Assembly: GCA_022778715.1 (NCBI GenBank) | Contig: JALFRW010000005.1 | Location: 229,986 to 293,985, forward strand | Reading direction: 5' to 3' | Source of the DNA: Ezakiella sp. | GTDB taxonomy: Bacteria; Bacillota; Clostridia; Tissierellales; Peptoniphilaceae | Length of the DNA stretch: 64,000 bases | In this document: positions 16,264 through 63,535 of the stretch, in pieces | Layout of the letters: each line of letters starts with the position of its first letter | Numbering within the stretch: position 1 is the first letter of the stretch | The notes under the pieces: model-generated | The model's input: the letters and a program-made list of their open reading frames with translations, nothing else | What the model was told of the DNA's origin: nothing | Database searches by the model: none | Translations under genes and position numbers: made by a program

Positions 16264-18837
16264 ATGGAAAACAATTATACTATTAAAACTGTTGAAGCAC
16301 TAAATGATGCTGTTAATTTGCGTAAGGAATATGGAAACGCAGAGATTAAGCCGGTGCATTTGTTTTTGGCAAGCTTAAATATTGAGAGCGTTATTAGTTT
16401 AGTTTTATCAAAGCTTAATGTAAATATTAATGAAATTAGAAAAGATACCACGGATATTGTTGAAAATTTAGCCAAAACTTCCGGCGGTGGAAATTATATG
16501 TCACGAGATTTGGACGAGGTTATGAAAGATGCCGACAAGATTAGGTCGGATATGAAAGATGAATACCTAAGCCTTGACCATATTTTGCTTGCAATGATCA
16601 ATAAGCCGTTTGAGCTTAAGGAAATTTTTAAAAAATATAATATTAACAAAAACAATGTTTTGGAGGTGCTTATGAATATTAGAGGTAATCAAAATATAAA
16701 TACAGACAATCCGGAATCCACTTTGGACGCATTAAATCGTTTTGGCAGAGATTTAGTTAAAATTGCAAGAGAGGGAAAAATGGATCCTGTGATTGGCAGG
16801 GACGAAGAGATTAGAGATGTTATTAGAATTTTGTCGAGAAGGACGAAGAACAATCCTGTCTTGATTGGCGAGCCGGGCGTTGGTAAAACTGCAATTGTGG
16901 AAGGACTTGCACAAAGGATTGTGAAAAACGATGTGCCAACAGGTCTTCGCGATAAGACAATTTACGAGCTGGATATGGGCGCTTTGATTGCCGGAGCTAA
17001 ATACAGAGGCGAATTTGAAGAGAGATTAAAGAGTGTTTTAAATGAAGTGAAAAAGAGCGATGGAAAGATAATTTTGTTTATAGACGAAATTCATAACATC
17101 GTGGGCGCCGGTAAGAGCGAAGGGGCAATGGATGCTGGCAACCTCTTAAAACCAATGCTTGCTCGTGGCGAACTTCACACAATCGGGGCTACTACTTTGG
17201 ATGAGTACAGAGAGTACATCGAAAAGGATGCTGCGCTTGAAAGAAGATTTCAAAAGGTTTATGTGGGCGAGCCATCTGTCGAGGACACGATTTCTATTTT
17301 AAGAGGACTTAAAGAAAAATATGAAGTGCACCACGGAATCAGAATTTCTGACGGCGCGGTGATTGCTGCCGCAACGATGAGTGCAAGATATATTTCTGAC
17401 AGATTTTTGCCGGATAAGGCAATCGACTTGATGGATGAAGCGAGCGCTCTTGTGAGAACGCAAATTGACTCCAGTCCGGTTGAGATTGATGAGTATGAAA
17501 GAAAGATTCTGCAACTTGAAATTGAGAGAGAAGCGTTGAAGAAAGAAACAGACGAGGCTTCCATGAAGAGACTCGATAATATAGAAAAAGAAATTGCAGA
17601 TAACAAGAAAAAATACGAAGCCCTCCGCGAAAAATGGGAAGAAGAAAAGAGCGAGATTGAAAAGGTTAAAAAAGTTAAAACAGAAATCGATGAAGTGAAG
17701 ACTCAAATTGAGCAAGCTGAAAGAAATTATGATTTGGAAAAATCAAGTGAACTCAAGTTTGGACGTTTGCCAAAGCTCATGGAAGAGCTTAAAAAGCTGA
17801 ACGAAAATTCAGATAAAGATAAGCTTTTAACAATGGAAGTGACTGAAGATACTATTGCACAAGTGGTGAATGAATGGACGGGCATTCCTGTGGCAAAGCT
17901 CACTTCAACTGACCGAGAAAAGCTGCTTCATTTGGGAGATGAGCTTCATAAGAGAGTAATTGGCCAAGACGAAGCTGTGGAAAATATTGTGGATGCAATT
18001 TTAAGAAGCAGAGCAGGACTTCAAAATCAAAATAGACCTGTGGGCAGCTTTATTTTTCTAGGACCAACCGGTGTGGGCAAGACAGAGCTTTCGAAAGCTT
18101 TAAGCGAATATTTGTTTGATGACGAAAAGAACATGGTTCGAATCGACATGAGTGAATATATGGAAAAATTCTCAGTGTCACGATTGATTGGTGCGCCTCC
18201 GGGATATGTAGGCTACGAAGAAGGGGGTCAACTAACTGAAGCAGTGAGACGTCGTCCATATTCTGTAGTGCTTTTTGATGAAATCGAGAAGGCTCATCCG
18301 GATGTGTTTAATCTGCTTTTGCAAGTACTGGACGATGGCAGACTTACCGACAACAGAGGTAGGGTGGTCGATTTTACAAACACGATTTTAATTATGACTT
18401 CAAACATCGGTTCACCACTTTTGCTCGGCGGAGTTGATGAAGAGGGAAACATTAAAGAAGATGTGAAAAACAAAGTGATGGAAGAGTTAAGAAACAATTT
18501 CAGACCTGAGTTTTTAAACCGTGTGGACGGAATTGTTATGTTTAAACCGCTCACCGTGGATAATATGTACAAGATTATAGATATTTCGATTAACAGTTTA
18601 AACGGAAGACTCGCTGACAGAGGGATTGTTTTGCATTTAGATGAAAGTGCAAAAGAATTTATTATAAGTCAAAGTTACGATCCAAATTACGGCGCAAGAC
18701 CTATTAAGAGATACATTTCAACAGTAATTGAAACTGAACTCGCAAAGAGAATTATCAAGGGAGACATTGTGGATAACAGCGATGTGGACGTTAGTGCAAA
18801 AGACGAAAAATTAAATTACGAAGTGAGAAGAGGTTAA
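16264..18837 (+). CDS. clpB: ATP-dependent chaperone ClpB
   Basis: Two AAA+ modules (GEPGVGKTAIVEGLA, GPTGVGKTELSKAL), coiled-coil middle domain, Clp-N domain. Confidence 0.96.
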   Translation: MENNYTIKTVEALNDAVNLRKEYGNAEIKPVHLFLASLNIESVISLVLSKLNVNINEIRKDTTDIVENLAKTSGGGNYMSRDLDEVMKDADKIRSDMKDEYLSLDHILLAMINKPFELKEIFKKYNINKNNVLEVLMNIRGNQNINTDNPESTLDALNRFGRDLVKIAREGKMDPVIGRDEEIRDVIRILSRRTKNNPVLIGEPGVGKTAIVEGLAQRIVKNDVPTGLRDKTIYELDMGALIAGAKYRGEFEERLKSVLNEVKKSDGKIILFIDEIHNIVGAGKSEGAMDAGNLLKPMLARGELHTIGATTLDEYREYIEKDAALERRFQKVYVGEPSVEDTISILRGLKEKYEVHHGIRISDGAVIAAATMSARYISDRFLPDKAIDLMDEASALVRTQIDSSPVEIDEYERKILQLEIEREALKKETDEASMKRLDNIEKEIADNKKKYEALREKWEEEKSEIEKVKKVKTEIDEVKTQIEQAERNYDLEKSSELKFGRLPKLMEELKKLNENSDKDKLLTMEVTEDTIAQVVNEWTGIPVAKLTSTDREKLLHLGDELHKRVIGQDEAVENIVDAILRSRAGLQNQNRPVGSFIFLGPTGVGKTELSKALSEYLFDDEKNMVRIDMSEYMEKFSVSRLIGAPPGYVGYEEGGQLTEAVRRRPYSVVLFDEIEKAHPDVFNLLLQVLDDGRLTDNRGRVVDFTNTILIMTSNIGSPLLLGGVDEEGNIKEDVKNKVMEELRNNFRPEFLNRVDGIVMFKPLTVDNMYKIIDISINSLNGRLADRGIVLHLDESAKEFIISQSYDPNYGARPIKRYISTVIETELAKRIIKGDIVDNSDVDVSAKDEKLNYEVRRG

Positions 18838-18858
18838 GATTTCTTAACCTCTTTTAGT
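18828..18858 (+). terminator. Terminator after clpB
   Basis: AAGAGGTTAAG atttc TTAACCTCTTTT. Confidence 0.75.
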
Positions 18859-18901
18859 TTAAAATGCCCATTTCGGGGTAAAATTTAATTGAGGTGTTAA
18901 A

Positions 18902-19168
18902 ATGAAAATAACGTTGACAAAAAATGCGAAAATTAGATTTCATGAATTAAATCCAAAATACGTGAGAATATATATTGTAAAATTCTCATGATGTGGTGCT
19001 ACTCTGGGCGTGCTCCCGGATGAACTACGCGATAATGACGAGCTTATCGAAACAGAAGGAATCAAATTTATCATCAACAGGGATGTGCTTGAAGTCGTGG
19101 AAAGAGACGTCAAAATTGATTTCATTCCAGAAGGTTTGAGGCGCGGTTTCAAAGTGTTTTTAGATTAA
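18902..19168 (+). CDS. Candidate selenoprotein: HesB/IscA-like protein with in-frame TGA (Sec30) followed by Cys
   Basis: Continuous reading frame from ATG 18902 to TAA 19166-19168 interrupted only by TGA 18989-18991: MKITLTKNAKIRFHELNPKYVRIYIVKFS(U)CGATLGVLPDELRDNDELIETEGIKFIINRDVLEVVERDVKIDFIPEGLRRGFKVFLD. Hairpin CTGGG-CGTGCT-CCCGG (19004-19019) sits at bSECIS distance after the UGA. Confidence 0.7.
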
Positions 19169-19233: not shown

Positions 19234-20679
19234 ATGGAAAATCTTGAACGCAATTTAACTCTTTTAGCTGACTTTTATGAATTTACAATGGCAAATGGTT
19301 ATATCAAGCTCGGAAGAGGAGATAAAACAGGATATTTTGATTATTTCTTTAGAAGAGTGCCGGATGACGGCGGATATGCCATTTTTGCGGGACTAACTCA
19401 ACTGATTGAGTATTTAGAAAATTTGAAATTTAACGATGAAGATATAGAGTATTTTAAGAGCAAGGGAATTTTCTCTGACGAATTTTTGCAAACGATGAGA
19501 AATTTCAAATTTACTTGCGATGTTTGGGCGGTGAAGGAAGGTTCAGTAATTTTCCCACACGAACCAATTGTTACAGTTAAAGGGCCGCTCTATCAAGTTC
19601 AAATGATTGAGACGATGCTTTTGTTAATTTTAAATCACCAATCTCTTGTGGCAACAAAGACATCTAGGATTGTGCGAGTGGCAAATGGCAGAGATGTGAG
19701 TGAATTTGGAAGCAGGCGTGCGCACGGAGCTGACGCTGCAAACTATGGAGCAAGGGCGGCATATATCGGAGGGGCGGTAGCAAGTGCCAATGCATATGCC
19801 GATAGACATATGGGGATTCCTGCAACGGGCACAATGGCTCACTCGTGGGTGCAAAGTTTTGACTCGGAGCTTGAAGCTTTTCGCGCTTATGCAGAAGTTT
19901 ATCCGGATAGCTGTTTGCTACTTGTTGACACGTACGATGTGCTTAGGTCCGGAGTTCCGCATGCAATTAAAGTGTTTGATGAGCTGAAAGCAAAAAATCA
20001 CAAACCGATCGGTGTTAGAATTGACTCGGGAGATATTGCATATCTCACAAAGGCAACGAGAAAGATGCTGGACGAAGCGGGATATGAAGATGCCGTTATA
20101 GTGGTATCAAATAGTATGGACGAGCACAAGATTAAAGATCTCTTAAACCAGGGAGCAAAGATAGATGCTTTCGGCGTGGGTGAAAGACTCATTACCGCAA
20201 AGAGCGACCCGGTCTTTGGTGGTGTTTATAAGCTTGTGGCTATGGAAAATGATGGAGAAATAATTCCTAAGATTAAAATTTCCGAAGATGTTGAAAAAAT
20301 AACAAATCCGGGATTTAAACAAATTTATAGATTATATGATAAAGAAACCGGATATATGGAAGCAGACCTCGTTACACTTCACGACGAAGAAGCTCCAAAT
20401 GGGGAACCACTTGAAATTTTCCATCCATTATTCACATGGAAGAGAAGTGTTGTCTCAAATTATGAAGCTGTACCTCTTTTGACACAAATTTTTAAAGAGG
20501 GCAAACTCATTTACAAAAATCCGGATATTGAAGAGATCAGAAATTATGCAAAAAGTGAACTGGACAGAGTGTGGGAAGAAGTGAAACGCTTGGATTCTCC
20601 CCACGCATATTATGTCGACTTGTCACAAAAATTATATGATGTTAGATTTAATCTTTTAAAAGAGAGAAATGATTTATGA
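19234..20679 (+). CDS. pncB: Nicotinate phosphoribosyltransferase
   Basis: TLLADFYEFTMANGYIK, SEFGSRRAHG, GTMAHSWVQSF, GVRIDSGD motifs. Confidence 0.94.
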   Translation: MENLERNLTLLADFYEFTMANGYIKLGRGDKTGYFDYFFRRVPDDGGYAIFAGLTQLIEYLENLKFNDEDIEYFKSKGIFSDEFLQTMRNFKFTCDVWAVKEGSVIFPHEPIVTVKGPLYQVQMIETMLLLILNHQSLVATKTSRIVRVANGRDVSEFGSRRAHGADAANYGARAAYIGGAVASANAYADRHMGIPATGTMAHSWVQSFDSELEAFRAYAEVYPDSCLLLVDTYDVLRSGVPHAIKVFDELKAKNHKPIGVRIDSGDIAYLTKATRKMLDEAGYEDAVIVVSNSMDEHKIKDLLNQGAKIDAFGVGERLITAKSDPVFGGVYKLVAMENDGEIIPKIKISEDVEKITNPGFKQIYRLYDKETGYMEADLVTLHDEEAPNGEPLEIFHPLFTWKRSVVSNYEAVPLLTQIFKEGKLIYKNPDIEEIRNYAKSELDRVWEEVKRLDSPHAYYVDLSQKLYDVRFNLLKERNDL

Positions 20680-62644: not shown

Positions 62645-63535
62645 TTATTCTACAGGCTGTTCAGTTAAATATTCATAAAAAGCTTCAGCACCCGGGCTCA
62701 AAGTTTTATTCTTGTGACGAACAATGTAGAACGGGCGATTAATAATCACATCTTTAATGCGAAGTGGAATAATCTTGTTACTCATTTCTGCAAAGCAAGC
62801 ACTGATAAATGCGCCGCCAAAGCCAAGATCAATAAGTTTTACAATTGCTTCATTACTATCAATAGTGGAATGCGGGAGTTTATTCAAATCTGAGTAAGGT
62901 TTATCAACAGAATTCATAAAAGTTTTATAAGTGCCGCTGCCTTGTTCACGTAGCATTAGCGGAATATCTTTTATGTCAGAATATTCAATTTCGCTAAAAG
63001 GAGCAAGGTCCTGGAATCTATCTTTATTTACGAGATAGCAAATTTCATCAGAGAAAATTCTAGTGTACTCCAATGTTGGGTCAGAAAACTTGAAACCAAC
63101 AAAACCAAAATCACAACCACCGCTTTTTACACTGCTAACAACGCTCATGGAATCAAGACCGGTTAAAGAGAAGCTAATATTGTCGTGAGTAGATGAAAAA
63201 TCATGCATTTTCTCAGGTAAGAAAAACAATTTTGGAACGCTTGAAGACAAAATGCTCACATTTCCTTCCATATTAGAAGTTGATACAGAAATTTCCAGTT
63301 TAGCACTTCCCATTGTATACACAACATTTTTTGCGTATTTATAGAAAATTTCACCGGCTTGTGTCATGGTTATAGTATGCCCTAAACGATTGAATAACAC
63401 ACAGTCGAGTTCTTTTTCCAGAATTTGAATGTGAGCCGTTATAGTTGGTTGTGAAACGAATAGTTTATCAGCTGCTTTTGAAAAGCTCTTCAAATCAGCA
63501 ACATACAAAAATGATTCTAAATGTTTTAAATCCAT
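62645..63535 (-). CDS. LysR-family transcriptional regulator
   Basis: MDLKHLESFLYVADLKSFSKAADKLFVSQPTITAHIQILEKELDCVLFNRLGHTITMTQAGEIFYKYA plus LysR substrate-binding domain. Confidence 0.93.
   Translation of the reverse strand: MDLKHLESFLYVADLKSFSKAADKLFVSQPTITAHIQILEKELDCVLFNRLGHTITMTQAGEIFYKYAKNVVYTMGSAKLEISVSTSNMEGNVSILSSSVPKLFFLPEKMHDFSSTHDNISFSLTGLDSMSVVSSVKSGGCDFGFVGFKFSDPTLEYTRIFSDEICYLVNKDRFQDLAPFSEIEYSDIKDIPLMLREQGSGTYKTFMNSVDKPYSDLNKLPHSTIDSNEAIVKLIDLGFGGAFISACFAEMSNKIIPLRIKDVIINRPFYIVRHKNKTLSPGAEAFYEYLTEQPVE

Follow-up and report, generated by a model that had tools for sequence, protein, structure and literature searches.

The HesB-like selenoproteins were recognized about two decades ago. 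They are small HesB-domain proteins with selenocysteine (Sec) at the position of the conserved HesB/IscA cysteine, and the family TIGR01911 is further characterized by a downstream SECIS-like hairpin, by hosts with the Sec trait, and by the motif U-x-G-P (PMC1794560, PMC13188914). The A-type Fe-S carriers IscA, SufA, and ErpA (PF01521; PDB 1r94, 2d2a, 1nwb) employ three cysteine ligands, namely Cys35 and a C-terminal CxC pair. In the archaeon Methanococcus maripaludis, mutagenesis and 75Se labelling served to identify the HesB-like selenoprotein MMJJ_08070 (PMC11097638). Published rules for bacterial SECIS (bSECIS) elements call for a loop of 3-9 nt, a stem of 4-16 bp, a G within the first two loop bases, a distance of 16-37 nt from the UGA, and an MFE of at most -7.5 (PMC13188914).

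The locus described here lies in a window of 64,000 nucleotides, by which we mean the whole stretch of DNA that was analysed. At positions 18902-19168, a frame starting with ATG at 18902 is open to the stop codon TAA save for one TGA. We are confident that this gene encodes a HesB/IscA-like selenoprotein and that the in-frame UGA is read as Sec. The features of the locus are as follows.

16264 to 18837, + strand: clpB, the upstream neighbour (TIGR03346, 1291 bits)
18829 to 18852, + strand: inverted repeat AGAGGTTAAG-ATTT-CTTAACCTCT followed by TTT, a terminator-like end of the clpB unit as read from the sequence
18891 to 18896, + strand: GAGGTG, a probable ribosome-binding site, likewise read from the sequence
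18902 to 19168, + strand: predicted HesB/IscA-like selenoprotein gene, 88 aa, with Sec at codon 30 and TAA at 19166-19168
18989 to 18991, + strand: in-frame UGA, the predicted Sec codon (codon 30), aligned with Cys35 of E. coli IscA
18992 to 18994, + strand: TGT, encoding Cys31, which directly adjoins Sec and would complete a vicinal Sec-Cys pair
19003 to 19020, + strand: bSECIS-like hairpin with a 6-bp stem (UCUGGG/CCCGGA) and the loop CGUGCU at 19009-19014
19234 to 20679, + strand: nicotinate phosphoribosyltransferase (NAPRTase) gene, the downstream neighbour, kept beside hesB in two relatives of the same genus

With the TGA translated as Sec, the frame reads MKITLTKNAKIRFHELNPKYVRIYIVKFS-U-CGATLGVLPDELRDNDELIETEGIKFIINRDVLEVVERDVKIDFIPEGLRRGFKVFLD. 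A preliminary description of this DNA had reported a gap in the ORF track and, within it, an 88-codon frame in which the TGA is followed by a Cys codon. All coordinates of that frame were correct, and no ordinary plus-strand ORF of at least 60 aa was found between clpB, which ends at 18837, and the NAPRTase gene, which starts at 19234. Ordinary ORF calling would overlook the gene, and so would a search at the cut-offs of the curated families. A similar GAGGTGG is located upstream of the hesB-like gene in another member of the genus (L020). The inverted repeat at the end of clpB was not flagged in a scan for the terminator consensus.

The HesB/IscA domain was recognized by several profiles. The protein matched NF038090 (IscA_HesB_Se) with an E value of 6.6e-14 and 52 bits (curated cut-off 85), TIGR01911 (HesB_rel_seleno) with 1.2e-5 and 25.8 bits (cut-off 66.35), and Pfam Fe-S_biosyn (PF01521) with 1.1e-5 and 26.0 bits (cut-off 26.3). 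A profile built from 21 relatives matched solved proteins of the IscA fold (E 4e-12), and residue 30 aligned with Cys35 of E. coli IscA, the conserved cysteine of the HesB domain. The HesB/IscA-like reading put forward earlier is thus borne out as far as homology is concerned, but the protein is a divergent member that scores below the cut-offs of both curated families, TIGR01911 and NF038090. AlphaFold, run on the single sequence, yielded a model too poor to confirm the fold (pLDDT 56). A search of the genome contigs for related loci returned only one distant, ordinary IscA-like gene.

Within the genus, the gene with TGA at the same codon was present in four of the five other members; the fifth (G049, 71% complete) gave no match to it. 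That the same-genus relatives retain the in-frame TGA, at a protein identity of 43-53% on both sides of it, is the decisive point that takes the observation beyond chance. The aligned column was occupied by U in 48 and by C in 13 of 61 related distinct sequences, and by nothing else, which answers the question, raised in the preliminary description, of whether homologs carry U or C at codon 30. The tree of 33 rows required five changes between Sec and Cys. One genome of the same genus (G048, L073:5877-6666) contains three HesB-like genes in tandem, one Cys and two Sec forms, and one of the Sec forms has C-U.

The gene was associated with selA. At the family level, a credible HesB-like gene was found in 22 of 131 genomes, each of which also had selA; this count leaves out a match in G068 that lies inside a frame of 4606 residues. 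Among 250 genomes of the order, a HesB-like match was found in 137, selA in 163, and both in 134. Hence, selA was present in 134 of the 137 genomes with the gene versus 29 of the 113 without it (Fisher p ~4e-37, a value that ignores kinship). Genomes with Cys-only forms also fall within this association. In the order, the family is almost wholly restricted to genomes with selA, Cys forms included, a pattern worth testing elsewhere with kinship taken into account.

All components sought for Sec incorporation were encoded by the same genome (1.62 Mb, 99.98% complete), where selD, selA, selB, and tRNA-Sec share a stretch of about 5 kb of contig C25. The scores were 586 bits for selA, 333 bits for selD, 346 bits for selB, and 67.9 bits for tRNA-Sec (anticodon TCA), the latter two being above their cut-offs. 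The selD gene (L009:5199-6233) itself contains an in-frame TGA, giving TSGUAAKVG, in which GUAAK fits the known UxxK motif. SelD is thus probably a selenoprotein whose N-terminus was missed by ordinary ORF calling. The glycine reductase genes for GrdA and GrdB (C25:268404-269953; L091, L092) likewise carry in-frame TGA codons, and glycine reductase is perhaps a main reason for keeping the Sec machinery. Judged from the sequences, at least SelD, GrdA, and GrdB of this organism contain Sec, and they were taken as positive controls. The impression that a LysR gene of the window resembles regulators of selenium metabolism found no support, as nothing ties this ordinary LysR-family regulator (62645-63535, minus strand) to selenium.

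The hairpin downstream of the UGA was found exactly as first described, with CTGGG at 19004-19008, the loop CGTGCT at 19009-19014, and CCCGG at 19015-19019, extended by an additional U-A pair between 19003 and 19020. The loop starts 17 nt past the UGA and has GU at its positions 2-3. The loop of 6 nt, the stem of 6 bp, the G at loop position 2, and the spacing of 17 fit the published rules. Its energy, -7.1 kcal/mol for the bare stem and -7.9 kcal/mol with dangling ends, lies at the edge of the -7.5 limit. For this reason, a caller based on MFE folding missed the hairpin, and bSECIS candidates were called by direct enumeration. By this procedure, an equally stable hairpin within the published spacing and loop rules followed only 12 of the 2445 TGA triplets on both strands of the window. 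When the region was recoded synonymously by local codon usage (GC3 0.29), an equally stable core hairpin appeared in 1.3% of 5000 sequences; this low rate is due to codons that are rare here, as the hairpin segment contains the Leu codons CTG and CTC (4.9% and 7.0% of Leu codons, respectively). The sequence GGCGTG at the loop was invariant across four genus members, although one of these, L020, has a weak stem with a mismatch. In several other genera (L028, L030, L033, L036), the best SECIS candidate has the loop UGGAU and is located 25 nt past the UGA, not 17. The likely SECIS may therefore have changed its position within the gene.

Insertion of Sec at codon 30 is very likely on this evidence. 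The hairpin that follows the UGA closely would guide SelB, which would deliver Sec-tRNA(Sec) to the ribosome at this codon. That the gene is short and falls below the curated family cut-offs would also suit a pseudogene, in which an ordinary Cys-type HesB/IscA gene was broken by a change of TGT or TGC to TGA, or a sequencing error at this codon. However, independent assemblies of four other species of the genus have a TGA at this codon, as do most families of the order. The genome also encodes the Sec machinery, and the protein similarity extends over both sides of the TGA. As different species share the TGA, a broken gene or an erroneous base was rejected, and we regard either as extremely improbable. 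Readthrough would yield a protein whatever the residue inserted, so that the TGA could in principle be decoded as another amino acid by general reassignment of the stop codon or by a near-cognate tRNA. A genome with tRNA-Sec and SelB, an aligned residue that is elsewhere only Cys, and a hairpin at the SECIS position all speak against such decoding, which we also consider exceedingly unlikely.

The selenoprotein reading leaves room for different functions. Sec30 would take the place of the conserved Fe/Fe-S-binding cysteine of IscA (Cys35). Its alignment with this residue and the shared domain family are compatible with a true A-type carrier in the role of IscA, ErpA, or SufA that uses Sec as its first ligand. 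Such a role, which would not conflict with a selenoprotein, is nevertheless unlikely: the protein has no C-terminal CxC to supply the ligand pair, the scores are far below the IscA/SufA/ErpA equivalog cut-offs, and the family shows a strong link with the Sec trait. Lacking the CxC of true A-type carriers, the protein probably does not act as a standard Fe-S carrier. A role in selenium handling, for example in delivery or sensing, would explain why Cys forms occur almost only together with selA, and the association in the order points in this direction. The p value ignores kinship, though, and a common anaerobic life could explain the pattern; moreover, 29 genomes have selA without the gene, and the gene is not located near the sel cluster. 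We therefore think a role in selenium handling rather improbable. More likely than the carrier role, though proposed here tentatively, is the function of a redox protein or of a protein binding a labile metal or cluster, in which Sec30 and Cys31 would either share a ligand or be linked reversibly as a selenenylsulphide.

The last proposal draws on a pattern among the relatives. Typical members from the order's other families have GUGGP and end in Cys, whereas the protein of the window has SUCGA and lacks a C-terminal Cys. The x-G-P sequence was present in 36 of the 61 relatives, and the proline is missing here. A Cys vicinal to the Sec/Cys position occurred in 14 of the 61 sequences; a C-terminal Cys was found in none of these 14 versus 37 of the 47 others, and 10 of the 61 members had neither. 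The pattern was noticed post hoc, and its Fisher p values take no account of kinship. Given the well-supported branches, the vicinal state must have changed at least five times. The exchange is seen between sister groups, as in L024 (CC, no tail Cys) versus L025 (US, tail Cys), and also in L026/L031/L035/L037 versus L027/L032. In typical family members, the partner of Sec would be the C-terminal Cys. That a vicinal and a C-terminal Cys never occurred together in the 61 sequences suggests that one may take the place of the other in supplying the partner thiol. It is conceivable, if still speculative, that the protein of the window belongs to a HesB-like selenoprotein subfamily in which a vicinal Sec-Cys pair (U-C, C-U, or C-C in Cys forms) repeatedly replaced the pair of Sec and C-terminal Cys and provides the IscA fold with a redox switch of the selenenylsulphide type. 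The pattern leads to a concrete, testable guess, namely that Sec pairs with a second thiol. Literature searches returned no paper on this divergent subfamily.

In the genus of the window, three species have the gene beside those for NAPRTase and dnaX, and in two of these it lies behind clpB. Elsewhere in the order, the typical HesB-like gene is often part of a conserved cluster with genes for a toprim protein (rnmV-like), rsmA, an ArsR regulator, a glutaredoxin, a CxGCP protein, a holin_4_2-like membrane protein, mgtE, and veg. In this cluster (L081, L082, L083, L085, L086, L089), the glutaredoxin has 76 aa and the CxGCP protein, on the other strand, has 61 residues. The presence of a glutaredoxin nearby is weakly in keeping with a thiol/selenol redox role.

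Compared with the described systems, the protein shares with TIGR01911 its small size, the HesB domain, Sec at the conserved cysteine position, the downstream hairpin, and a host with the Sec trait. The motif U-x-G-P is altered to U-C-G-A, in which U and G are kept and P is replaced by A. NF038090 is its best family match, and all 21 aligned relatives match this subfamily, although naming by the curated cut-off would miss the protein. With IscA, SufA, and ErpA it has the domain in common by profile match and would hold Sec at the Cys35 position, but it differs in the missing C-terminal cysteines. MMJJ_08070 is likewise a HesB-like selenoprotein, with an archaeal host and another SECIS system; this likeness is one of description. 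The gene is thus an unannotated, divergent relative of the established HesB-like selenoprotein family (PMC1794560) and not a new kind of selenoprotein.
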